This document shows positions 20,997 to 35,426 of a stretch of 64,000 bases of DNA, piece by piece. The position numbers and the translations under genes are program-made. The stretch is from Kineosporia corallincola (GTDB lineage Bacteria > Actinomycetota > Actinomycetes > Actinomycetales > Kineosporiaceae). Location of the stretch: the NCBI RefSeq assembly GCF_018499875.1, contig NZ_JAHBAY010000005.1, forward strand, positions 62,001 to 126,000, read 5' to 3'. A model generated the notes under the pieces. The model searched no databases and was not told the DNA's origin. It saw only the letters and a program-made list of their open reading frames with translations. How positions within the stretch are numbered: position 1 is the first letter of the stretch; every line of letters starts with the position of its first letter.

Positions 20997-23900
20997 ATGA
21001 CGGACGAGGGCCGCACCGGCGCGCGCCACTGGATGGCGCGGCTGCGCGGGCAGGCCACGCCGCAGGGCCTGTCGCTGGTCGCCGGGCTCGCCGCCGCCAC
21101 CAGCGCCGAGATCTGGCTGCCCGCACTCCTGACCGGCGGCACGGCCGGGGCCGCGGCGATCGTCGCCGGTGTCGGCGGGAACCTGATGGCCAGCGTCATC
21201 GAGGACGTGTGGCGGCACATCCGTGACGACCCGGCAGCGGCCACCTCCACCGGCAGCGCTGATGAACAGGCCAGGTTGCAGGCCCTGCTGGAGCAGACCT
21301 TCCAACGGCTGCTGTCCGAAGACGAACAGCGCGGTGTACGGCTGGTGTTCGAGCAGGAGGTGAACCGGTTCCTGCACCTGACCGGCGCCCTGGACGAGAC
21401 CGGCACCGACCCCGGCCTGCACGCCGGTCTGGTCGACGCGCTCAACGGGCTGGGCGGCGTGATCGCCACCGGCAACCGGATCATCCTCGACCAGGTGCAG
21501 GCCGGGCAGGACCGCGTGGACGAGTACGCCGCCCGGCAGACCGCGGCCCTGGCCCAGCTCATGCGCCTGGAACAGGTGCGGCAGGCCGAGATCCGCCGGT
21601 TCGCCGACAGCCGTACCCCGGTGGACGAGCCCGGTGAGCGCGACCCCCGCCAGGCCCCCTACCCCGGCCTCGACCCGGTGGGTCCCGCCGAGGCCGCGGC
21701 CGGGTTCTTCCACGGCCGCGACCAGATCCTGGCCGGGCTGCTGACCCGCCTGGCCGCGCGCACCCAGGACGAGGTGAGCCTGCTGGTCGTCACCGGCTCC
21801 TCCGGGGTGGGCAAGACCTCGCTGCTACGGGCCGGGCTGATCCCCGCCGTCGACAACGGCCTGCTCGACGTCCCCGGCTCGCGGGAGTGGCCGGTGGTGT
21901 ATCTCCAGCCGGGGCGTGACCCGCTGCGGGCGCTCGCCCACGGCATCACCCCGATGAACCATCCTGTCGGCGCCCTGCCGGACGACCTGGCCCGCGAGCC
22001 CAACGCGCTGGGCAACTCGCTGGGCCCCCTGCTGGAGGGACGGCCCGCCGGCGCCCGGGTGCTCATCGTCGTCGACCAGGCCGAGGAACTGTTCGCCCCC
22101 GGCCCTTCCGGCCAGGCCCGGGAAGCCTTTCTCAGCGCGCTGATCCGGGCCTCGACGAGGGACGCCGTGGTCCTGCTCAGTTTCCGGGCGGACTTCTACG
22201 CGCAGTTCGCCGCGCAGGAGATGCTGCGCGTCCACCTCGAGCACCACTCGCTGTTCGTGCCGCCGATGAGCCGCGCCCAGTTCCAGGAGGTCATCGAGGG
22301 CCCGGCCCGCGCGGCCGGGCTCACCCTCGGCCCCGGGCTGACCCGGGCCCTGCTCGACGACACCAGCGCCGAGTCGCTGCCGCTGCTGGCCCACACGCTG
22401 CGCCGGCTCTGGGAGGACAGCGACGGCAGCACGCTGCGGCTGGGCGACTACCGGGAGATGGGCGGGCTGGCCCACGCCATCAGCTCGACCGCCGAGAAGG
22501 TGTACAACGACCTGAGCGTCGGCCAGCGGCGGATCGTCCGCCCGCTGCTGCTGTCCATGGTCAGCATCGGCGACGGCACCCACGACACCCGCCAGAGCGT
22601 CGTCACCTCCGACCTCCTGAACTCCTTCCAGCACAAGAGCGCCGATGCCGCAACCGTTCTGCGCCGTCTGAACGAGGCCCGCATCGTCACCTCCGGCCGG
22701 CTCACCAGCACCCTGAGCCACGAGACCATCATCACGGCCTGGCCGGAGCTCCAGGGCTGGCTGAACGACGACCGCACCGGCCTGCGCCTGCACGAGGAAC
22801 TGCGTAACGCCGCGCTCTACTGGAACACCCACCGCGACGAGGCCGGAACCCTCTGGGGCGGAGTCCGGCTGGAGACCATGCAGGCGTGGTCCCGGCAGCA
22901 CCCGCGGGCCCTGACCACCCTCGACCAGGAATTCCTCACCGCGAGCCAGGAGCACCGCGACGCCGCCCGCACCGCCGAGCGCCGCCGGGCACGCAGAACG
23001 CGTTTGCTGGCCGGCGTCTTCGCCGTGCTGTTCGCCGTCGCCTCGGTGCTCGCCGTGGTCTCGCTCCGGCAGACCCGGGCCGTCGAGCTGTCCCGCAACA
23101 CCATCCTGGCCGGACAGCTGACCAGTCAGGCGCAGGACCTGCTGCGCACCGAACCGCGCCTGGCCACCCTGCTGGCCCTGGAGGCCGACCGCATCCATCA
23201 CACCGCCGCATCCGCCGACACGCTGGTCACCGCCGCCCACTCACCGGTCTTCCGCACCGTCAGCGGGCACACCGGCACCGTGACATCGGTGGAGTACAGC
23301 CCCGACGGAACACGTTTCGCGACCTCCAGCGACGACAAGACCGTAAGAATCTGGGACGCCCGCAGCGGCCGGGTGGTCCGCGTGATCACCGGGCACACCG
23401 ATTCGGTGAGGGACGTGACCTGGTCACCCGACGGCAAACTCATCGCCACCGGCGGCTGGGACGCCACCGCCCGGGTGTGGGACGCCGCGACCGGCAGACA
23501 ACTGCGCGAGATGGGCGCCACCGCGGACGAGAAGAACGTGCGGGCGCTGGCCGTCGCCGGCGTCGCGTTCAGCCCGGACGGGAAAACCCTGGCCACCGCC
23601 GACAACGTGCGGAACACCGGCAGGCTGTGGGATGTCGCCACCGGGAAACTGCTGCACACGCTCAAGGGCCACACCGACTACGTCACCGACGTCTCCTACA
23701 GCAGGGACGGGACGACCGTCGTCACCGTGAGCGCAGACAACAGCGCGCGTATCTGGTCGGCCGGCACGGGCAGGCTTCTGCACACCGTCCCGGGCGAGGA
23801 CAACGAGATCTCGCAGTTCGTGAGGCACAGTCCCGACGGAAAGACGTTCGCGACCGCCGGATTCAGCGGATCTGCCCGGGTGTGGGACGCGCGCAACGGT

Positions 23901-25184
23901 GAGAGCCACGGGTTCGTCACCCGGTCCGTCCTCCAGTCGGTGTCCGGCCTGGCCTACAGCCCCGACCAGAAGTACCTGGCCACGGCCACCCGGGGAGACC
24001 GCGTGCAGCTGTGGGACCTGCGCAAGGGAAATCTCATGCCGATCATGAGTCTCGAGAACGAGGACGTCTCCGGCGACGGCCTGGACTTCAGCCCTGACGG
24101 CACGACGCTGGCCATCGCCCTGGGCAACCGGGTGCGCCTGTGGACGCTCGGCACCGGTGACAGCGCACGCCTGATCGGCGACACGACCGACGCGGCGTCC
24201 GGGCTCGCGTACTCCCCGGACGGATCCACCCTCGTCACCGTCAATGCGCAGGACACGACGGTGAAATTCTGGGACGCCCGGGACGGCGACGCCCGGGCGA
24301 AGGTGGACCGCGACGTGGGCGGCACCGGCGAGGCTCAGTACAGCGCGGACGGCGCGGTGCTGGCCACCGGGGACGCCGGGGACATTGGGTTCAACGAGAC
24401 CACCGGCTACCAGGGCAACTTCGGCACCGTGCAGCTGCGCGACCCGGAAACCGGCCTGCCCACCGGAAAACTCAGCGTCAGGGGCACCCGGGTGATGACG
24501 ATGGATTTCGGCCCCGGCCACCTGATCGCGGTCGGCTACCAGGACGGCACCACCCGCATCTGGGACGCCGACACCCGCACCGTGGTCCGCACGATCACCG
24601 GGAACGACGGCGAGATCAGCAACCTGGCCTACAGCGGCGACGGCGCGATCGTGGCGATCGTCGGCGACGACAGCCGGATCGGGATCTGGGACGCCCACAG
24701 CGGCAGGCTGCTGCGCACGCTCGCCGGGCACACCAGCTACCTGACCGCCCTCGCCCTCAGCCCCGACGGGAAGACGCTGGCCAGCGGCGGGTACGACAAG
24801 GTCGTGCGACTGTGGGACGTCACGGGCGGACGCCAGGTGCACGTGATTCCCGACCACGAGGACCTGATCGACTCCCTGGCCTTCGGGCCGCGCGGTGAAA
24901 CCCTTGCCAGCGGCGGCGGTGACGGCACCGTGCGGATCTGGAGAACCGCGACCGCCACCCCACTGTTCACCCTCACCGGCCAGACCGGTGGGGAGAAGGT
25001 CCTGTCGTTCGGCCCGGACGGCACACAGCTGGCCGTCGGCAGCACGACCGGCGGGCCGGTACAGATCTGGGACACCCGGGCGGACGCCTCGAAGACCCGC
25101 CTCTGCGAGCGGGCCGGCCGCAACCTCACCCGCACCGAGTGGGACACGTACATCGGCGGGGACTACCGGCGCACCTGCGGCTGA
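20997..25184 (+). CDS. nSTAND NTPase with transmembrane segment and 14 WD40 repeats
   Basis: A 1395-residue protein. Residues 1-75 include a hydrophobic stretch (TSAEIWLPALLTGG to VAGVGGNLMASV). The nSTAND NTPase begins about residue 220 (APYPGLDPVGPAEAAAGFFH), with Walker A TGSSGVGKTS (about 266-275) and Walker B VLIVVDQAEELF (about 354-365). A single membrane segment follows (LLAGVFAVLFAVASVLAVVS, about 670-690). Fourteen WD40 blades fill about 748-1365 (VRIWD, ARVWD, GRLWD, ARIWS and so on), enough for two seven-blade propellers. The tail CERAGRNLTRTEW is a usual end for this class. STAND proteins act as signal-triggered switches; the effector here is not obvious. A short membrane-protein gene follows 95 bp downstream. 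Confidence 0.93.
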   Translation: MTDEGRTGARHWMARLRGQATPQGLSLVAGLAAATSAEIWLPALLTGGTAGAAAIVAGVGGNLMASVIEDVWRHIRDDPAAATSTGSADEQARLQALLEQTFQRLLSEDEQRGVRLVFEQEVNRFLHLTGALDETGTDPGLHAGLVDALNGLGGVIATGNRIILDQVQAGQDRVDEYAARQTAALAQLMRLEQVRQAEIRRFADSRTPVDEPGERDPRQAPYPGLDPVGPAEAAAGFFHGRDQILAGLLTRLAARTQDEVSLLVVTGSSGVGKTSLLRAGLIPAVDNGLLDVPGSREWPVVYLQPGRDPLRALAHGITPMNHPVGALPDDLAREPNALGNSLGPLLEGRPAGARVLIVVDQAEELFAPGPSGQAREAFLSALIRASTRDAVVLLSFRADFYAQFAAQEMLRVHLEHHSLFVPPMSRAQFQEVIEGPARAAGLTLGPGLTRALLDDTSAESLPLLAHTLRRLWEDSDGSTLRLGDYREMGGLAHAISSTAEKVYNDLSVGQRRIVRPLLLSMVSIGDGTHDTRQSVVTSDLLNSFQHKSADAATVLRRLNEARIVTSGRLTSTLSHETIITAWPELQGWLNDDRTGLRLHEELRNAALYWNTHRDEAGTLWGGVRLETMQAWSRQHPRALTTLDQEFLTASQEHRDAARTAERRRARRTRLLAGVFAVLFAVASVLAVVSLRQTRAVELSRNTILAGQLTSQAQDLLRTEPRLATLLALEADRIHHTAASADTLVTAAHSPVFRTVSGHTGTVTSVEYSPDGTRFATSSDDKTVRIWDARSGRVVRVITGHTDSVRDVTWSPDGKLIATGGWDATARVWDAATGRQLREMGATADEKNVRALAVAGVAFSPDGKTLATADNVRNTGRLWDVATGKLLHTLKGHTDYVTDVSYSRDGTTVVTVSADNSARIWSAGTGRLLHTVPGEDNEISQFVRHSPDGKTFATAGFSGSARVWDARNGESHGFVTRSVLQSVSGLAYSPDQKYLATATRGDRVQLWDLRKGNLMPIMSLENEDVSGDGLDFSPDGTTLAIALGNRVRLWTLGTGDSARLIGDTTDAASGLAYSPDGSTLVTVNAQDTTVKFWDARDGDARAKVDRDVGGTGEAQYSADGAVLATGDAGDIGFNETTGYQGNFGTVQLRDPETGLPTGKLSVRGTRVMTMDFGPGHLIAVGYQDGTTRIWDADTRTVVRTITGNDGEISNLAYSGDGAIVAIVGDDSRIGIWDAHSGRLLRTLAGHTSYLTALALSPDGKTLASGGYDKVVRLWDVTGGRQVHVIPDHEDLIDSLAFGPRGETLASGGGDGTVRIWRTATATPLFTLTGQTGGEKVLSFGPDGTQLAVGSTTGGPVQIWDTRADASKTRLCERAGRNLTRTEWDTYIGGDYRRTCG

Positions 25185-25912: not shown

Positions 25913-26920
25913 TCAGGCCGGCAGGCTGCGGGCCTGAAGGCTGCGGGCCAGGTCCAGCACCGACTCCTCGACCGGCCGGGGGTTCCAGCCGAGCAGCTCC
26001 CGCGCCTTGCGGCCGGAGGGCTCGCGGGCCACACCGAGCTCCGAGACCACCAGCGCGGCGCGGGGATTCACCCGGGCGGCCAGCCGCACGGCCCAGTCCG
26101 GCAGGGTCCGCGACGGCACCCTGCCCGCGGCGTCCCCCAGGTTCTCCCGCAGCAGCGCGGCGATCTGGGCCAGGGTCAGCGCGCCGGCACCGGCCAGGAA
26201 CCGCTCACCGGCCGCGGCCGGATCGACCATGGCCCGCACGTGCAGGTCCGCGACGTCCCGCACGTCCACCACCGCGACGGTGATCCGCGGCAGCGCCGGC
26301 AGGGTCCCCTTCAGCAGGCTGTCGACCATGCCCGCCCACAGCGACAGGTCCGCGCCCAGCGCCGGGCCGAACACGGCCGGCGGGTTGACCACCGCCAGCT
26401 CGGTGCCGCCCCCGGCGGTGAACTCCCAGGCCGCGCGCTCGGCGGCCAGTTTCGACTTCGAGTAGGCCGCCATCTGCGGGGCGTCCGGGTCGCTCCAGTC
26501 GGCCTCGGTGAACGTCGTCCGGTCGCCGTGCCCGTACTTCACCGCGGCGAACGACGAGGTCAGCACGGTGCGCCTGACGCCGGCCGCACGGGCCGCGCGC
26601 AGCACCCGCAGGGTGCCCTCCCGGGCCGGCTCGATGACCTCCGCCTCGTCGCGGGGCCTGGCCTGCGGAACCGGTGACGCGACGTGCAGGACGTAGTCGC
26701 ATCCGTCCATCGCCGGCTCCCAGCCGGCCTCGGCGGTGAGATCGGCGACGGCGAAGGACAGTGCGTCACCGTCCTCACCGGTCATCGCCCGCACGTCGGC
26801 CTCCCGCCGCAGCGACCGCACCGTCGTGCGCACCCGGTACCCCTCCTGGAGCAGCCGCAGGACGCAGTGCGACCCCACGAATCCCGATCCGCCGGTCACC
26901 AGCACCAGTTCGCCGCTCAC
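25913..26920 (-). CDS. NAD-dependent epimerase/dehydratase, dihydroflavonol-4-reductase-like
   Basis: A 335-residue extended short-chain dehydrogenase. The nucleotide-binding motif VTGGSGFVGSH is at the N-terminus. The catalytic pair lies in AYSKSKLAAE (YxxxK), with the upstream TSSFAAV as the serine region. Close relatives are annotated as cinnamoyl-CoA or dihydroflavonol reductases, but bacterial substrates are mostly unknown. GTG 26920 follows an AGGGG ribosome-binding site; the longer frame upstream reads through non-coding sequence. The gene is convergent with the membrane-protein gene. Confidence 0.88.
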   Translation of the reverse strand: MSGELVLVTGGSGFVGSHCVLRLLQEGYRVRTTVRSLRREADVRAMTGEDGDALSFAVADLTAEAGWEPAMDGCDYVLHVASPVPQARPRDEAEVIEPAREGTLRVLRAARAAGVRRTVLTSSFAAVKYGHGDRTTFTEADWSDPDAPQMAAYSKSKLAAERAAWEFTAGGGTELAVVNPPAVFGPALGADLSLWAGMVDSLLKGTLPALPRITVAVVDVRDVADLHVRAMVDPAAAGERFLAGAGALTLAQIAALLRENLGDAAGRVPSRTLPDWAVRLAARVNPRAALVVSELGVAREPSGRKARELLGWNPRPVEESVLDLARSLQARSLPA

Positions 26921-26967
26921 ACACGTCCCCTCATCCGTCCAGATCATCCACCTGGAAGGGACACACC

Positions 26968-27216
26968 GTACTTCGACCCGAACCGCACTCAGCGCTGCCC
27001 CCCGAAGGCCGCGCAGCGATCTTCTCCGTCGCCGAGCTTCTACTCCATCGCGCGCAAGAGGCGCACGAGGTCCGCACCGACACTGACCTGGCAGAGATCC
27101 TGAAACTGGCCGGGGGCATCGCCAAGATCCCGGCCAGCGAACCGGCCGAGATCGGCCACCTCCTGGAGATAGCTCTCGACGGTCTGCGCCACCGCTCTGG
27201 CAAACTGAAAGCCTAA
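26968..27216 (+). pseudogene. Possible 5'-truncated small protein remnant
   Basis: A frame with coding-like composition ends at TAA 27214-27216 and encodes about 80 residues, with a helical stretch (VAELLLHRAQEAHEVRTDTD, then LAEILKLAGGIAKIPAS). No ATG, GTG or TTG occurs in frame between 26968 and the helical part, and upstream the frame runs antisense to the epimerase. Either a remnant whose 5' end was lost or a chance frame. I recognise no family. Confidence 0.25.
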
Positions 27217-27573
27217 CGAGAAGAGACGTTTCGTGACCCGGCCGGGAACCGTCAGTCGAGGGCATCGGGACCGCACAGGGAGCCGGAACAGCACACGCGC
27301 CATGACGCTTCACACCGCCGGGCGCGATATCGGGTGCATGCTGAGCATGGCGGCCCGAGGGCTGTGACAGCTCGGTGGACGCGCTCGGGAACGAAGCAGT
27401 GGCGATCGAGCCGGCTCGGCCCCGCCGTGATGCCATCGGCGTGGTGGATCGCCGGTAGGCGCTGCCTGATCGTGTCCCGGGTCGCCCCATCCGCTGCCGA
27501 TGGCGGTTGTGAGGGCGTCATCACGAGAACTGCGGGTGCTGCGTGTAGGACGGGCGCTGACCGGTCGTCCCGT
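27217..27573. other. Intergenic region, 357 bp, no gene recognised
   Basis: Short frames here lack coding signature or recognisable family. It separates the possible remnant from the 3' end of the MEKHLA gene and is the left border of the scarred island. Confidence 0.5.
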
Positions 27574-28017
27574 TCATTCTTTCCAGCGCCTTATCATCGC
27601 CGCTTGACCTGCGGGAGAACCATCGGCCTGAGCCAGATTCCAGACCGTCGTCTGCTCGATCCAGAAGCAACGGCCATGCTTGGTGATCCGTCGCCCACGA
27701 TAATTCTCGGCGTACCCCCGGCGGGCAACCGCTTCCATGAACACCTGCCGGTCGTCACGATCGTCCTCGTCGGCGGACAGCCGGGAGGGCAACCCGACGA
27801 ACTCGTCCCAGCTGTAGCCAAAGATGCTCTGAGCCGTCAGGTTTGCATACACGAACACGGGGTCCGGGGCGGTATCGTGCACGAGCAGGCCGAACGGCGC
27901 CTGGTACAGCCAGGCGGCAGCCTCGGCGCCTCGGAGGTTGGGGGCCACAAGATCGGTGCCCGTCCTTCTTGAGTAGCTCGTGATGAGCAGGTCCGCGAAG
28001 TCGGCGCTCGTCTTCAC
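27574..28017 (-). CDS. MEKHLA domain-containing protein
   Basis: A 147-residue protein that is almost entirely a MEKHLA domain, a PAS-related fold named from plant HD-ZIP III proteins and also found in bacteria. Diagnostic segments are LLITSYSRRTGTDL, DPVFVYANLTAQSIFGYSWD, GLPSRLSADE and the C-terminal FWIEQTTVWNLAQADGSPAG followed by QAAMI. GTG 28017 overlaps the TGA of the upstream ketol-acid reductoisomerase gene by 4 nt (GTGA), which fixes the start and implies coupled translation. The frame upstream of GTG is antisense-like and not supported. Likely a cytosolic small-molecule or redox sensor; the function is not known. Confidence 0.85.
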   Translation of the reverse strand: MKTSADFADLLITSYSRRTGTDLVAPNLRGAEAAAWLYQAPFGLLVHDTAPDPVFVYANLTAQSIFGYSWDEFVGLPSRLSADEDDRDDRQVFMEAVARRGYAENYRGRRITKHGRCFWIEQTTVWNLAQADGSPAGQAAMIRRWKE

Positions 28018-29495
28018 TGAACGGAAATATTCACGGAGGGCCGCATCTCGGCGCAGATTCGCAGAACCTCGTGAATGGGATGATTCTCGAACGCCTTGAT
28101 CAAACCGGAGTCCAAGTCTGTGCTCTTCTGGTCGATGGCCGGATAGGCGGCCTGCGTCAGCAGGTAGTCGAACCGCGGCGCCCACTTACGGGCACCGAGA
28201 CGGGCCGTGGTAGAGCAGTTGTCGACCATGTAGGCAATTCCGCGAGCGTGCATGTACGGATTCAACGAGTCGGTTGCCTCGATCACGGACTCGTTGGCGA
28301 TCTCGGAGTAGGGATGACCCTTCTCGACCAGGGTGTCGATCTGACCCATCATGACGCCGCAGAAGGTACCGGCGGTGAACGGGTCCAGCGGCAGAGCGTC
28401 GTCGTCCCGGTCGCGCCGTGCTACCTCGCCCGCCTGCCACATCTCGGCCTGGTCGATCTTGCTCATCGGGAACCGGTCGAGGCGCTGCCCGGCGAGAATG
28501 ACGCTGCGAATTTCGTTGCCGGAAGAGACCTCGTCATAGATCTCGTGAGTGAGCTCGAGACCCACCGGATAGGCGGCCGCGTAAGCCTGCGCGAATTCTT
28601 CCTTCTGAGCCGCGTCGAGCTTGCGGTACAGGCCGATCAGGCCATCTGCCGAAACAGTGCGGGAGATGGGTCCGGTCACGCAGTCCACCGAGCGACGGTA
28701 GGCGGAGGTCTCGTCCAACCCCTGGGCGCGCAGGCGCCGGTAGAGACTCTCGACAATGCCATGGACGCCTCCGAGGAGGATCGAGCGCTCACCTGTGAGG
28801 TCAGACAGGTACTCCGAGCGTAGGGTGGTCTGAAAGGTGTAAGGGGCGCCCAGGCCCACCGACCAGCCCAGCGCCCGTTCAGTGGCGCGGCCCGTGACGT
28901 CCTGCTCAACAGCGAAACTGGCATTGATTCCGGCGCCGTTGGTGTCAGAACCCTGCAGGTACAGGGCACGGACCGAAGCGCCCATCCCCTTGGGACAGAC
29001 GGCGATGACATCGACGGTCTCCGGGAACCGCTCCCCCTTCTGCTCCAGGTGCCCCAGAAGGAAGCCATGAGAGAGCCCCAGAGTCGTGCCAGGGCGAAGC
29101 GCCTGAAAGATGCTCTGATACAGAGCAGCCTGAGCCGCGTCCGAGATCAGCAGCAGCACCAGGTCAGATGCAGCGATGACCGCGAACAACTCCCCCAGTG
29201 TGCCCTGCTCCTCGCTGAAACCAGCCTTCCGGGCGGCCTCACGCGAGGAAGATCCCTCGCGGAGCCCGACAACCACCTTCACGGAGCTGCCGGCCAGCGA
29301 GTCCCGCAGGTTCTGGGCCTGAGCCGATGCCTGCGGACCCCAGCCGATCACACCGATCTGCTCAACACCCTCAAACGCCTGGGGCAGTCGGTCGAACAGA
29401 TCACGCCCACCCCTGACAATGCCCTCCCGGGTATCGTTCAGAACAATGTATTCCTTGTCGAAAGTGGTGGTTTCGAAATCCAGTTGCACTTTCAC
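28014..29495 (-). CDS. ilvC: Ketol-acid reductoisomerase, class II (plant-type)
   Basis: A 493-residue KARI, the second enzyme of valine/isoleucine biosynthesis (acetolactate to dihydroxyisovalerate, Mg2+ and NADPH). Length and sequence match the long class II form of plants, algae and some bacteria, not the about 335-residue class I enzyme usual in actinobacteria. Matching blocks are GVIGWGPQASAQAQNLRDSL, VIAVCPKGMGASVRALY, NGAGINASFAVEQDVTGRAT, FTAGTFCGVMMGQID, SYSEIANESVIEATDSLNP with MHARGIAYMVDNCSTTARLG, and RKWAPRFDYLLTQAA. ATG 29495 is the natural start. It is coupled to the downstream MEKHLA gene, and no other ilv genes are visible nearby. Confidence 0.92.
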   Translation of the reverse strand: MKVQLDFETTTFDKEYIVLNDTREGIVRGGRDLFDRLPQAFEGVEQIGVIGWGPQASAQAQNLRDSLAGSSVKVVVGLREGSSSREAARKAGFSEEQGTLGELFAVIAASDLVLLLISDAAQAALYQSIFQALRPGTTLGLSHGFLLGHLEQKGERFPETVDVIAVCPKGMGASVRALYLQGSDTNGAGINASFAVEQDVTGRATERALGWSVGLGAPYTFQTTLRSEYLSDLTGERSILLGGVHGIVESLYRRLRAQGLDETSAYRRSVDCVTGPISRTVSADGLIGLYRKLDAAQKEEFAQAYAAAYPVGLELTHEIYDEVSSGNEIRSVILAGQRLDRFPMSKIDQAEMWQAGEVARRDRDDDALPLDPFTAGTFCGVMMGQIDTLVEKGHPYSEIANESVIEATDSLNPYMHARGIAYMVDNCSTTARLGARKWAPRFDYLLTQAAYPAIDQKSTDLDSGLIKAFENHPIHEVLRICAEMRPSVNISVQ

Positions 29496-29769
29496 TCCTC
29501 ATTCAGCTGGCGTTGATGGCGCCCCTCGGCACCATAGGGTTCCGCCCTGCGGACCTTTTTGTCCAAATCCGAGAAGAGTGAGGACTCCTCACGCTGAGCC
29601 GTCACCATGTGGCCGGATCATCAGGGTGTCCCCGCGATGAGCAGGCCGGAGGGCAGCCAGTAGGGGTGGACGCCGTCCTGTCGCCAGGGGGTTTGGGCAT
29701 CTGATGGCACCGATGATGTCCGCCCGAAAATCCCTCAGGCGGCGGACAGAGGGGCCAACCGGGGACGCG

Positions 29770-30408
29770 ACCGTGCGGGCCCTCGCCCTCGGCCTGATCC
29801 CGGTGGCCCACGCCCTCGGCCGTCTCGGGATCGGCCTGTACGTGTAATCCCTGGCCGTCTCGTCCCTGCTGCATTCCTGGTGCTCCGCAGGCCGTTACAC
29901 GCTCCTGGCCGACGTGCTGCACCCGGACGACCACCTGGCCGGGATCGCGTCAGTGCTCGGCGGGCCGGTCACGGCCCATCTACGCAGCCTGCCGTTCTGG
30001 ACCATCACCGTGGGCGCGGTGGCCCTCGTGGGCCTGGCACTGCTGCCACTGGGCGCCGGCGCACCCACCACCGTGTCGGTCATCGCCTTCGCCCTGGGCG
30101 GTCTCACCTGGGCGCCCTATCTGTCCACCACCATGGCGCTCCACCAGCGCCGTAGCGGCCGCGCAGTTGCCGCCCGTGCTCGCCGTGAACAGCGCGGTGG
30201 CCGTGCCGGCGGCCCCGCTCGGGACCGTGCCAGGAGGTGTTCCGTCGACGGATGGGGCGCCCGCGAGACGCTCCTGTGCTCGTCGATCGCCCTGATGCCG
30301 ATCGCGTTCCTGGCCGTCGTCCTGCTGTGCCTGCCGCGCCCGGACGGCAGAATCCACGGCAGAGCACCACGTTTCCTCCCGGCAACGGCCCGTGACCCGC
30401 TACCGTGA
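29770..30408 (+). pseudogene. Decayed MFS transporter (C-terminal half)
   Basis: Frame continuity is broken. TVRALALGLIPVAHALGRLG runs into TAA at 29845-29847, then the same frame resumes with YTLLADVLHPDDHLAGIASV, a hydrophobic segment and FALGGLTWAPYLSTTMALHQ. Near 30160 the reading shifts: QLPPVLAVNSAVAVPAAPLG lies in another frame, and near 30235 it returns to SVDGWGARETLLCSSIAL and a last membrane segment. At least one stop and two frameshifts, plus a missing N-terminal half, mark a degraded major facilitator gene. Confidence 0.7.
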
Positions 30409-30432: not shown

Positions 30433-30858
30433 ATGGGCAAGGTCGTCATGTACGCATCGGTGTCGGTGGACGGCTTCATCGCGGACGAGAACGACCAGCC
30501 CGGGCCGCTGTTCGACTGGCTGACCGAGGGCGACGTCCCGCTCGACGAGAACGGCTTCCTCAAGGTCTCACAGACGTCCTACGACCACGTCCGGCCGTAC
30601 TGGGACCAGATCGGGGTGACCGTCACCGGCCGCCACGTGTTCGACCTGACCGACGACCGGGACGGCACTCCCCCCAGCGGCATCGACCATGTCGTCGTCG
30701 TGACCCACCGGACAGGCCCGAGGGCTGGCACCCCGGGGCGCCGTTCCACTTCGCCGACGGCGTCGAGGCGGGCATGGCCAAGGCACAGGAACTCGCGGGT
30801 GAGCACCTGGTCGAGGTGGCCGCCGGCGACGTCGGCGGCCAGGCGCTCACCGCGGGGC
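30433..30858 (+). pseudogene. Dihydrofolate reductase-like (RibD C-terminal) gene, frameshifted and truncated
   Basis: It starts well: AAGGAG, then ATG 30433 and MGKVVMYASVSVDGFIADEN, the DHFR/RibD-C family N-terminus. After DHVVVVTHRTGP (about 30720) the frame shifts: PEGWHPGAPFHFADGVEAGM and HLVEVAAGDVGGQALTAGL continue in another frame. The gene then ends abruptly near 30858 where transposase-like sequence begins on the opposite strand. The family's last third is missing. Insertion of an IS256-type element followed by decay explains the break. Confidence 0.75.
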
Positions 30859-31498
30859 TGACGGATCTTGACCACGATCGCGTCGATGAAGACAGCCGGG
30901 TAGACACGGTCGAGCGAGCGGTGCAGCCACTCGGTCATCTCGGCAATCACGGCGTCCGTGATCCGTGAAACCTGGTCCTGACCGACGCTGGCGCCGTAGA
31001 CCCCCGCGAAGTGCGCCGAGACTTCTCCAATCGTCAAACCCTTCGCGGTGAAAACAAAACGATCTAATCGATGGATCCCAGACGACGCTGACGCTTCTTC
31101 ACGATCACCGGCTCGAACGAGCCCTCACGATCACGCGGAACGTCGATCTCGACCGGCCCCACGCCGCTCAGGACGGTCCTGGACCGCTTCCCGTTCCGCG
31201 AGTTACGCCCGTTGCGGCCCTGCGGATCGTGGGCCTCATAGCCGAGGTGCTCGACCATCTCGGCCTCCAGCGCGGCCTCCAGGACCCGCTTGGTCAGCTG
31301 CGCCATCAACCCTTCCGGACCGACCAGATTTGCCCCCGTGGCCCTGGCCTGCGCCACCAGATCCACGGCCAGACGCTGCTGCTCGTCCCGTATCAGGAAC
31401 GCCCCGATGATCTCACCAGCCTCACCCGAAACCTGTTCCTGGCTATCACCACTCGTGGATCGCTGAGCCCCCGCCATGGGCTCGATGCTGTCGGACAT
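30858..31498 (-). pseudogene. IS256-family (mutator type) transposase remnant
   Basis: ATG 31498 begins MSDSIEPMAG, and the frame carries the IS256 N-terminal blocks LVGPEGLMAQLTKRVLEAAL, EMVEHLGYEAHD, GVGPVEIDVPRDREGSFEP and VKKRQRRLGSID. A TAG at 31064-31066 and a 1-nt shift just after break the frame. The continuation FTAKGLTIGEVSAHFAGVYG, VSRITDAVIAEMTEW and VYPAVFIDAIVVKIR lies in another frame. The C-terminal half, including part of the DDE core, is absent. The element is inactive and ends inside the DHFR-like gene. Confidence 0.85.
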
Positions 31499-31807
31499 GT
31501 CCTGCTCCTGTCCGCCAATCACTCAAGATCGGCAGGTCAGGCCGGACCGCGTTACCCCCTTCGTAGGACAGTCCCACTGCGCGCCGTCGAAGGACACCGT
31601 GACGGCACCGACCAGCTCTGGGCGACCTGCAGCTACGTGCCCTGTCGACTTCGCGCCGGAGCCCATGCTCCGGCAATACCGAGCAGGCAGGTGGAGTCGA
31701 TCTGCCGCAACCACGCAGCGTGAGCACGAATACCCGTGAAGCGTTATGGGCACTGAATGGGCAGCACATCCTCTGGCCCCTCCTGCATCACCCCCCGAAC
31801 CTGAAGC
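31499..31807. other. Intergenic region, about 310 bp, unresolved
   Basis: It lies between the transposase remnant and the AraC-type gene. Overlapping short frames exist on both strands but none is recognisable. It may hold further insertion-element debris. No terminal inverted repeat could be paired with the other end of the IS256 remnant. Confidence 0.4.
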
Positions 31808-32179
31808 GTGTCGAAAATTGCCGAACGTTCATCCGATCCTCGGGTGCACCGCGTCACCCTCGTCATGACGGAACGAATCAATGAGCGACTCACCGTGGTG
31901 GATCTGGCGGCCGAGGTACAAATGAGCCCGCACCACTTTCTCCGGATGTTCCGTCGGGCTGTGGGCGAGACTCCGCACCGCCACCTGATCCGGCTGCGGG
32001 TCGAGCGGGCGAAACAGTTCTTGGAATCCGGACGGATGGTCAGCGAAACCGCTGCTGGCTGCGGCTTCTCGAGTGCCTCGCACTTCTCCGCAGTGTTCCT
32101 GCGGGAGACCGGGGTGCGACCCTCGCGATGGCCTCTCAGCTCAGCGAAGTCTTCCGAGCTGTCCGGAACGCGTCCCTGA
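31808..32179 (+). CDS. AraC-family DNA-binding domain protein (short)
   Basis: A 123-residue protein consisting of the AraC/XylS double helix-turn-helix only: RLTVVDLAAEVQMSPHHFLR, MFRRAVGETPHRHLIRLRVE, MVSETAAGCGFSSASHFSAV and FLRETGVRP. No sensor domain is encoded. GTG 31808 is the first usable start; the missing N-terminal two thirds may have been lost when the island to the left was rearranged. Its last 44 nt overlap the convergent epoxide hydrolase gene. It may be functional as a stand-alone regulator. Confidence 0.7.
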   Translation: MSKIAERSSDPRVHRVTLVMTERINERLTVVDLAAEVQMSPHHFLRMFRRAVGETPHRHLIRLRVERAKQFLESGRMVSETAAGCGFSSASHFSAVFLRETGVRPSRWPLSSAKSSELSGTRP

Positions 32180-33317: not shown

Positions 33318-33451
33318 GGCCGGACCGGGTCTGCGCTCGATGCGTAAAATTGCTTACTTGCCGTTGGCGCTGGGCCCTTTCGACGGCAGGAAACCCAGCG
33401 GTGATCTCCAGCATGTCGCCCACTGCGGCTCACCCCCTCAGATGCCGTGGG

Positions 33452-33457
33452 TAGGGT
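33452..33457 (+). promoter_or_regulatory. -10 box of probable leaderless promoter for AAA/HTH gene
   Basis: TAGGGT on the plus strand, 7 nt before ATG 33465. It supports that start over the upstream ATG 33447. Confidence 0.4.
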
Positions 33458-33464
33458 GGTCTCC

Positions 33465-35426
33465 ATGGCGGTGCTGAAGGAACGGCTCAGCAGAGTGCGG
33501 CGCAAGTCCTTTGTCGGGCGCGCGGCAGAACTGGAAACGTTCCGAGCAGCGCTGTCCGCTCCCGGAGTGCTCTTTGTCCACGGACCCGGTGGGATGGGCA
33601 AAAGCACTCTGCTGGAGGAGTTTGCCGCGGTCGCAAGGGATGCCGGCCGTTCAGTGGTGCACATGGACGCGCGGCACGTGCGGCTCAGCCCGGACGCCTT
33701 ACCCGCGGTGCCCGCCTTCGGACGTACGGTGCTCCTGATAGACACCTATGAGCGGCTGGAACCGGTTGATGACTGGGTTCGTGAGGAGTACCTGTCGTCC
33801 CTGCCCGATGACGTGGTGGTGGTCATCGCGGGGCGGCGCCCGCCCGGCCCACGATGGCGGGCCGATCCGGCTTGGCGGTTGCTGACCCGGGAGCTGCCTC
33901 TGGACAACCTGCGGCCCCACGAGGGACGCGGATACCTCCAGGCCCAGGGAGTGGCCGAGGAGGTGCACGAGGGGCTGCTGCGGGCCAGCCACGGTCATCC
34001 GCTGACACTCTCGATGCTGGCCGACGCCACCAACCGCGGCCTGCGGGCCACCTCGCTGGCAGAACTGCCGGACGTGGTCGCGGCGCTGCTGGCCCAGACC
34101 GTCGAGTCGGTCCCCTCGCCCCGTCACCGGGCCGCGCTCGAGGTGTGCGCCCACGCGCCGGTCACCAGCGGGGACTTGCTACGGTCGGTGGCCGGGGACG
34201 AGACCGGTGAACTGTTCACCTGGCTGCGCACGCTTGCGTTCGTGGTCGACGGGCCCTACGGGCTGTACCCTCACGACGCGATCCGGGATGCGCTCGATGC
34301 CGACCTGCGCTGGCGTGATCCCCAACGGTACGCCGAACTCGACCGCCGGCTGGTGACAGCCCGGTTGCAGCAGCTCCTGGCGACCACGGACGAACGAGAG
34401 CGCCTGCAAATGGTGGTGGACTCGATCATGCTCGGCTCGACCCGATCCTCTGAGGACAGCTGTAGCGCCCCGTCCCCCACGCTTCAGGCGTATGCCGACC
34501 ATTTCCGTGAAAGCGATCGGACGTCGATCGTCACCATGACCGAAGCATGGCAGGGCCCGGAACAGGCGGCTCTGGTGGAGTTCTGGCTCGATCGCCGGCC
34601 CGAGGCGTTCCGCGTCTTCCGGGCGCCGTCCGGCGAATCCCGCGGCTACGCCACCGTTCTGGATCTCACGGAGGCCGACCTCGGTCTGGATCCGAAAGCG
34701 GACGCGATGTGGCGCATCGCACACGAGCAGGCTCCGCCTCGCACCGGCGAGAAGATCCGGGCGTGGCGATTCTTCCTGGACCGCGACCAAGGGCAGCAGC
34801 CGTCGCCCTCGACGACGCTGTTCACGGCCTGCCAAGTAGTGGACGCACTGGTCCGCAAGAACACCGCGTGGACGCTGGTAGGAGCCTGCACCGACCCGGC
34901 CAGGTGGAGCCCGACGATGGCCAACCTCGACTTCTGGCCGGTCGGCGAAGGCGAGGCTGCACCCGAGGTGTTCGGACACGACTGGCGCCGCCGGGACCCC
35001 ACCGAATGGCTGAAGTGGGTGCACGCTCGGCACACCGGCGGACACTCGCCGGCAGAGGATCCATCACAGGATCGAGTCATCCTGTCCCGGATGGATTTCG
35101 ACGAAGCCGTTCGGGCCGGCCTGCGTGATCTGCACCGACCTGAGCAGTTGGCGGCCAACCCTCTCCTGCGCTCGCGCGTGGTGGACAAGAACCGGAGCCA
35201 GGGGCGAACACCGGACCAGACGCTCACCCGGCTGTATCAGACAGCTCCGTTGCCACCAGACCTTCAGGACCTGATCACGCGTACCTTCCTGAACCCCGCC
35301 CCGAAACAACAGCGCGTCGCGGCTGATCTGCATCTGTCGTTCAACACTTTTCGCCGCCGCCGCGATCAGGCGGTAGCCCGCATCGCCGACTGGCTCTGGG
35401 AACAAGAGATCGGGCCTCGCGCCTGA
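33465..35426 (+). CDS. AAA/STAND-type ATPase with C-terminal helix-turn-helix
   Basis: A 653-residue protein. The N-terminal NTPase has Walker A GPGGMGKST (residues 40-48) and Walker B TVLLIDTYERL (about 88-98), followed by winged-helix-like sequence (SLAELPDVVAALLAQTVESV). The central region (about 350-500) resembles acetyltransferase-like sequence (FRVFRAPSGESRGYATVLDL) and may bind an acyl-CoA or other ligand. The C-terminus has a sigma-region-4/LuxR-like helix-turn-helix (QRVAADLHLSFNTFRRRRDQ). Overall a signal-dependent transcriptional regulator or conflict-system switch; its target is unknown. It is divergent from the epoxide hydrolase, a possible regulated partner. Confidence 0.82.
   Translation: MAVLKERLSRVRRKSFVGRAAELETFRAALSAPGVLFVHGPGGMGKSTLLEEFAAVARDAGRSVVHMDARHVRLSPDALPAVPAFGRTVLLIDTYERLEPVDDWVREEYLSSLPDDVVVVIAGRRPPGPRWRADPAWRLLTRELPLDNLRPHEGRGYLQAQGVAEEVHEGLLRASHGHPLTLSMLADATNRGLRATSLAELPDVVAALLAQTVESVPSPRHRAALEVCAHAPVTSGDLLRSVAGDETGELFTWLRTLAFVVDGPYGLYPHDAIRDALDADLRWRDPQRYAELDRRLVTARLQQLLATTDERERLQMVVDSIMLGSTRSSEDSCSAPSPTLQAYADHFRESDRTSIVTMTEAWQGPEQAALVEFWLDRRPEAFRVFRAPSGESRGYATVLDLTEADLGLDPKADAMWRIAHEQAPPRTGEKIRAWRFFLDRDQGQQPSPSTTLFTACQVVDALVRKNTAWTLVGACTDPARWSPTMANLDFWPVGEGEAAPEVFGHDWRRRDPTEWLKWVHARHTGGHSPAEDPSQDRVILSRMDFDEAVRAGLRDLHRPEQLAANPLLRSRVVDKNRSQGRTPDQTLTRLYQTAPLPPDLQDLITRTFLNPAPKQQRVAADLHLSFNTFRRRRDQAVARIADWLWEQEIGPRA

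Follow-up and report, generated by a model that had tools for sequence, protein, structure and literature searches.

A plant-type ketol-acid reductoisomerase gene recurrently paired with a MEKHLA-domain gene in actinomycetes

The gene pair and its surroundings

Two overlapping genes are located on the reverse strand of the window, which is the whole 64,000-nucleotide stretch of Kineosporia DNA analyzed here. The first, at positions 28014–29495 (−), is a frame of 493 codons without a stop. It carries both Pfam domains of ketol-acid reductoisomerase (KARI), namely KARI_N (PF07991, E = 4.3e-31) and KARI_C (PF01450, E = 6e-36), and its nearest relatives of solved structure are the rice (3fr7) and spinach (1qmg) enzymes, which match over the full length with 627–630 bits and 59% identity. 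This full-length match to the plant enzymes, the combination of KARI_N with a long KARI_C, and the size of approximately 490 amino acids correspond to the class II form, and the score against the general ilvC model of NCBIfam (205 bits, cut-off 226) falls just below the threshold. D232 and E236, the metal ligands by comparison with spinach KARI, are retained together with the sequence blocks SEYLSDLTGER, NESVIEA, and CSTTARLG. The metal- and substrate-binding residues of the spinach enzyme (D315, E319, E492, E496, and S518) have their counterparts in the window protein. Judged from its sequence, the gene is an intact plant-type class II KARI. Its dN/dS values against six relatives (0.09–0.16) are rough because dS is about 1 or more and thus near saturation, but purifying selection appears to act on it. 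A ribosome-binding-like GAGGAG read off the sequence at 29495–29500 (−) precedes a GTG at 29489 by five bases; this GTG is therefore a likelier start than 29495 and would give a product of 491 amino acids.

The second gene (27574–28017, −) codes for a single-domain, PAS/LOV-like MEKHLA protein of 147 amino acids, which matches profile PF08670 (E = 5.6e-47) with 159.7 bits (curated cut-off 23.7) over positions 2–142 of 143. The stop codon of the KARI gene and the start codon of the MEKHLA gene share the four nucleotides GTGA (28014–28017, −). Thus, the Pfam matches, the solved relatives, and the shared GTGA bear out the first-pass annotation, which had described a class II KARI overlapping a 147-residue MEKHLA protein by 4 nt.

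The same annotation had placed the pair in a zone of decayed genes, and several probable marks of decay were indeed recognizable in the sequence. Two pieces of Mutator-family transposases (PF00872) were found beside the pair, one at 30579–31037 (−; 3.9e-15) and one representing the N-terminal part at 31064–31522 (−; 2.9e-22); a relative in L024 matches the N-terminal piece and part of the other. A frame at 26761–27216 (+) matches only the C-terminal part of a TetR family (PF21597, 1.3e-9, positions 41–105 of 105) and no other family, and is a probable remnant. A short frame at 31808–32179, adjoining an epoxide hydrolase gene, contains an AraC-type DNA-binding domain, the only domain found in it. 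A decayed MFS gene suspected by eye at 29914–30408 had no Pfam match and is not claimed. The KARI gene has a G + C content of 62.8% and a GC3 of 77.5%, the flanks a G + C content of 70.1%; in the relatives with a downstream MEKHLA gene, GC3 amounts to 88.5–98.2% in 9 of 10 cases and to 86.5% in L041. Elsewhere, the window encodes a 1395-amino-acid nSTAND1 NTPase with WD40 propeller repeats (20997–25184) and a 659-amino-acid AAA_16/nSTAND-like ATPase (33447–35426), neither of which had a PADLOC match. A defense system was rejected, as none of the four window proteins searched was matched in PADLOC, and an RNA element was likewise rejected, as the region 27300–30400 had no Rfam match.

Distribution and phylogeny of the plant-type KARI

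A scan of species genomes returned at least 465 relatives (at least 588 stretches), of which the best 80 loci were used. Among these 80, 21 actinomycete loci had 67–82% identity to the window KARI, and 59 loci with at most 64% identity belonged to many phyla and included a few other Actinomycetota. Because the best 80 of at least 465 relatives were used, the clade may be larger than the 27 members treated here. Among the matches listed, the plant-type enzyme is found in many bacterial phyla, and in actinomycetes it is a patchy accessory gene. In the genus it occurs in three of six genomes, and none of seven other members of the family searched had it. At E ≤ 1e-60, matches were obtained in 3 of 396 genomes of an order sample (all Kineosporia), 2 of 394 of a class sample, and 2 of 396 of a phylum sample, with the window's own genome counted each time. 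Three Streptomyces plasmids bear the plant-type KARI. Carriage by phages or other viruses is not supported, as a pattern search of viral contigs found no close relative and five phage records matched only partially, with 29–35% identity.

The window sequence and 26 other actinomycete KARIs formed one clade (SH-aLRT 99) in a quick tree built from 91 KARIs; this clade was recovered (100/99) in a more careful tree of 40 sequences comprising the 27 clade members and 13 of the 62 outgroup members, without L133 and L134. The KARIs of the Acidimicrobiales joined this clade (93 in the quick and 99/96 in the careful tree). A plant origin of the gene, as might be read from the plant-like blocks emphasized in the first-pass annotation, was not borne out: although both trees are unrooted, a recent plant-to-bacterium transfer is not supported, because the clade groups with the Acidimicrobiales and the plants form a separate branch.

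Within the clade, the window KARI pairs with a copy from Catenuloplanes (92 in the quick and 99/94 in the careful tree) apart from its congeners (L025 and L026), whose gene pair lies at a locus common to both and different from that of the window. The window MEKHLA likewise pairs with the Catenuloplanes copy (86/70). Inheritance of the window copy together with those of the congeners is thus not favored, but approximately unbiased (AU) tests grouping the window with its congeners did not reject it (p = 0.236 for KARI and 0.14 for MEKHLA). Distances among KARIs and among MEKHLAs were concordant across the 11 pairs with a downstream MEKHLA (Mantel r = 0.825, p = 0.0002), to which shared descent of the hosts contributes. 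Since these distances agree, the pairing with Catenuloplanes appears in both trees, and the composition differs from that of the flanks, the joint transfer of KARI and MEKHLA that had been proposed from the window sequence is likely.

A second KARI beside the housekeeping enzyme

Elsewhere, the genome encodes a class I KARI of 343 amino acids directly after the genes of the large and small subunits of acetolactate synthase (the former partial in the locus). The window KARI therefore is an accessory copy, in agreement with the earlier suggestion that it is a second KARI. Three further weak KARI_N matches in the genome probably represent other NAD-binding proteins. The same holds for the clade as far as it was searched: its KARI is additional to a class I KARI in all 19 actinomycete genomes searched (not including those of L045, G004, G005, and the plasmid hosts), whereas outside the clade the plant-type enzyme is the sole KARI at E ≤ 1e-12 in 20 of 20 genomes, mostly MAGs, chosen from 60 loci. 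In close actinobacterial relatives, the class II gene was not found as a sole, vertically inherited ilvC. Acetolactate synthase genes (ilvB/ilvN) were found near none of 29 KARI loci (the 27 of the clade plus L133 and L134, some ending at a contig edge).

At eight positions that are conserved across at least 90% of the 62 outgroup KARIs, no less than 85% of the clade sequences carry a change (N162D, R177A, I233L, G238A/S, A243G, T350A, Y378F, and A380G; L133 and L134 omitted). I233 and G238 flank the putative metal ligands D232 and E236. In Pseudonocardia spinosispora (L055:5562-11473), a single-module NRPS gene with a terminal reductase is located directly upstream of the clade KARI, indicating a possible biosynthetic use. 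MFS-type transporters occur near three clade KARIs without MEKHLA (L046, L052, and L053), two of which (L046 and L053) also have FCD/GntR regulators nearby.

An acquired tRNA synthetase of a second type protects against mupirocin, and by analogy the class II KARI could serve as a spare target that still works in the presence of a natural inhibitor of the class I IlvC, with MEKHLA binding or sensing the inhibitor. We consider this rather unlikely. The consistently additional status of the enzyme, its spread across families and onto the three plasmids, the transporters near some copies, and the location of I233L, G238A/S, and A243G next to the metal-binding helix would fit such a role, as would the lack of ilvB/ilvN neighbors. 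The latter is not special, however, as these genes are also absent from 57 of 60 outgroup loci, and G238A is shared by two of three KARIs of a second actinomycete group outside the clade (L137–L139). Transporters are common in general, and at most loci none was noticed nearby; L055 is the only locus in which a biosynthetic (NRPS-like) gene was seen directly beside KARI. We know of no natural KARI inhibitor, and none appeared in the accessible portions of the literature searched for natural products inhibiting KARI.

A further possibility, which we regard as doubtful, is that the enzyme has drifted toward another ketol or keto acid for a specialized metabolite or a redox task, with MEKHLA assisting. 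The eight altered positions and the NRPS gene in L055 are consistent with such a change of substrate, and KARI paralogs in Streptomyces are known to diverge, including toward reduction of a proline precursor and supply for valanimycin, according to the portions of the source available (PMC4353338). Against it, the recognized catalytic blocks are kept, and pathway genes common to the surroundings of the pair are absent. Either a spare target or a changed substrate could be compatible with a regulatory MEKHLA protein.

Pairing with MEKHLA across the clade

A search of gene neighborhoods, which the first-pass annotation had proposed, found the pairing in 14 of the 27 clade loci, so that the adjacency is not unique to this genome. 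In 11 loci the MEKHLA gene lies directly downstream of KARI on the same strand (the window, L025, L026, L037–L041, and L043–L045). It lies upstream on the same strand in three (L023, L047, and L056, in the last of which the match runs from residue 19 and is preceded by a stop), and two others have upstream fragments (L030 and L050, the latter spanning only 0.36 kb upstream). At the remaining 11 loci no MEKHLA gene was found within approximately 3 kb, with the sequence of L036 reaching some 1 kb downstream. None of 59 loci outside the clade had MEKHLA beside KARI, several of them covering just 3–5 kb. The KARI proteins of L030, a plasmid of S. mirabilis, and of L050 from S. diastatochromogenes are identical; MEKHLA is interrupted on the plasmid and a fragment in S. 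diastatochromogenes.

The gene caller placed a 4-nt GTGA or ATGA overlap in 10 of the 11 downstream pairs; in the other (L025) it picked an ATG 12 nt further on, and a GTG is present at the minus-4 place. When the neighbors of the 27 loci were clustered, the next most common one occurred in at most 6 loci, with closely related loci sharing more, and the module thus consists of two genes in changing surroundings. No 10-mer upstream of 24 loci (without L050 and without the near-copies L030 and L043) stood out above two mononucleotide shuffles as a common motif. AfsR/BTAD-type regulators were observed near KARI or MEKHLA in L025 (by Pfam), in L026, L049, and L052 (by clustering), and in L040, L045, and L123 (by eye), and in L123 an unlinked MEKHLA gene overlaps a BTAD-type gene by 4 nt; about 23 BTAD genes were counted per genome.

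MEKHLA genes also stand alone beside unrelated genes, including in the congeners G001 and G002, which lack a plant-type KARI. Two unlinked copies on Streptomyces plasmids (L031 and L034) are located near a 6-carboxytetrahydropterin synthase gene and cupins. Five of the 19 genomes searched for class I KARI have no MEKHLA and one has a weak match only, and MEKHLA is therefore not needed for retention of the clade KARI.

The relationships of the linked MEKHLAs were analyzed in a tree of 26 sequences, 12 of them unlinked (three from the genus, four from 113 plasmid records, and five from the 19 genomes; the fragments of L030 and L050 were omitted). A single clade of the 14 linked MEKHLAs was ruled out by the AU test (p = 8.35e-6), as was one group of the three linked MEKHLAs of the Streptomycetaceae (p = 0.00116, a set named after the tree had been seen), whereas one group of all 11 downstream MEKHLAs was allowed (p = 0.256). 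The simplest reading of these sequence relationships is that linkage arose repeatedly, perhaps three times, from different MEKHLA lineages and in both gene orders. Some pairs could also have been separated afterwards, adding to the scatter, and the rejection of a single clade would also fit gains followed by separations.

If both genes simply travel often, they might have become neighbors without any functional link. The frequency of MEKHLA genes on plasmids (the 113 records), the position of the window pair among transposase pieces, and the clade loci that lack MEKHLA agree with this explanation. It is nevertheless very improbable in our opinion, as unlinked MEKHLA genes are rare (five good copies in the 19 genomes), the same KARI clade occurs with MEKHLAs of more than one lineage and in either gene order, and the frequency of adjacency together with the conserved overlap lies far beyond chance by our informal estimate.

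The MEKHLA protein and a possible regulatory role

The best AlphaFold2 model of the window MEKHLA, calculated with 10 sequences, had a pLDDT of 91.7 (four of five models 91–92, the fifth 52) and predicts a PAS fold with two additional N-terminal helices. Top Foldseek matches of this model were LOV and other PAS domains; a profile search of the protein (A2) against solved structures gave nothing at E ≤ 0.01. A LOV-type blue-light photoreceptor was considered and rejected. Taking GXNCRFLQ with its photoactive cysteine as the LOV motif, HMMER aligned GLPSRLSA of the MEKHLA protein with GRNCRFLQ, which puts Ser78 in the place of the reactive cysteine; serine is found there in all 26 MEKHLAs compared, and the neighboring LOV asparagine corresponds to Pro77 in the window protein. 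N59, S78, R90, Y106, R107, R110, and Q138 are invariant in the same 26 proteins, which suggests a polar, perhaps anionic ligand. With dN/dS values of 0.22–0.41, again rough at a dS of about 1 or more, selection looks weaker in MEKHLA than in KARI. The protein contains no DNA-binding domain.

At some other plant-type KARI genes a different putative sensor was found. All three loci of the second, more divergent actinomycete group (L137–L139; G998, G798, and G797) have a LysR-type gene divergent from KARI, as do 9 of 60 outgroup loci (not detected at 51). NCBIfam model NF008722 names this gene IlvY; four of five proteins tested (three of the second group and two of the outgroup) scored above its cut-off, and the fifth reached 245.6 of the required 246 bits. 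The divergent ilvY-ilvC arrangement is known from E. coli; IlvY senses the KARI substrates. No IlvY gene was adjacent to KARI at any of the 27 clade loci (with an upstream span of 1.1 kb in L043 and 0.36 kb in L050). We prefer a regulatory role of MEKHLA mainly because it is the clade lacking IlvY that acquired a PAS-type sensor.

We accordingly give about an even chance to the proposal that the pair constitutes a small, horizontally spreading operon of an accessory class II KARI and a MEKHLA protein as its dedicated ligand-sensing regulatory partner. The accessory KARI would work beside the housekeeping class I IlvC, and the PAS pocket of MEKHLA would bind a small anionic ligand such as a keto acid, an acetohydroxy acid, a flavin, or a nucleotide; the sensing of a ligand or redox state by MEKHLA is a reasonable inference. 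Because MEKHLA has no DNA-binding domain, it is proposed to set the activity, stability, or assembly of KARI by protein–protein contact, taking the place held by the substrate-sensing activator IlvY near certain other KARI genes of the plant type. Plant-type KARIs of other phyla, which have no adjoining MEKHLA, presumably work without it. In its most specific form, which is put forward tentatively and is in our judgment more probably wrong than right, MEKHLA would be a PAS-type counterpart of IlvN that senses a branched-chain metabolite or flavin and gates the accessory KARI, this protein-level sensor having replaced IlvY, probably more than once. To our knowledge no biochemical role of a stand-alone bacterial MEKHLA protein has been described; a regulatory role would be the first, and a defined enzyme partner offers a direct handle on it. 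The existence of an accessory plant-type KARI in actinomycetes also bears on the choice of targets for KARI inhibitors.

Comparison with known systems

Both protein families are known, but a conserved KARI-MEKHLA operon was not found in the literature searched: no paper on the pair was retrieved with both terms or with second ketol-acid reductoisomerase. In the accessible portions of the literature on class II KARI in connection with actinobacteria, self-resistance, horizontal transfer, natural-product inhibitors, or Actinoplanes, nothing on the clade KARI was found. An E. coli-like class II KARI has been described, as far as the available part of the source indicates (PMC8985424).

The window KARI resembles the chloroplast enzymes of rice and spinach in its long class II form, sequence identity, and catalytic blocks. 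It differs from them in its separate branch and in the eight altered positions of its clade, whose members moreover are accessory rather than sole KARIs and are often paired with MEKHLA. With the KARI paralogs of Streptomyces it shares the status of a second actinomycete KARI. According to the part of the source available, there is evidence that S. coelicolor ilvC2 and Svi2 of the valanimycin cluster have diverged in function, the S. coelicolor pair are duplicates with 97% identity, and Svi2 belongs to an ilvBNCE operon (PMC4353338). By our inference these paralogs are class I enzymes, whereas the window KARI is of class II, horizontally spread, and without ilv neighbors.

The MEKHLA domain of plant HD-ZIP III proteins negatively regulates the activity of REVOLUTA, as reported in the accessible part of the source (PMC4496561). 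The window protein belongs to the same family but is a stand-alone bacterial protein without a fused homeodomain. Its predicted PAS fold is shared by short LOV flavin photoreceptors, but these have cysteine and asparagine at the places of Ser78 and Pro77. Like the IlvY-ilvC arrangement, the KARI-MEKHLA pair places a (putative) sensor gene beside a KARI gene; unlike IlvY, MEKHLA lacks a DNA-binding domain and is encoded in the same direction as KARI, whose gene it overlaps when located downstream. In the proposed operon, MEKHLA would relate to KARI roughly as the ACT subunit IlvN relates to IlvB.
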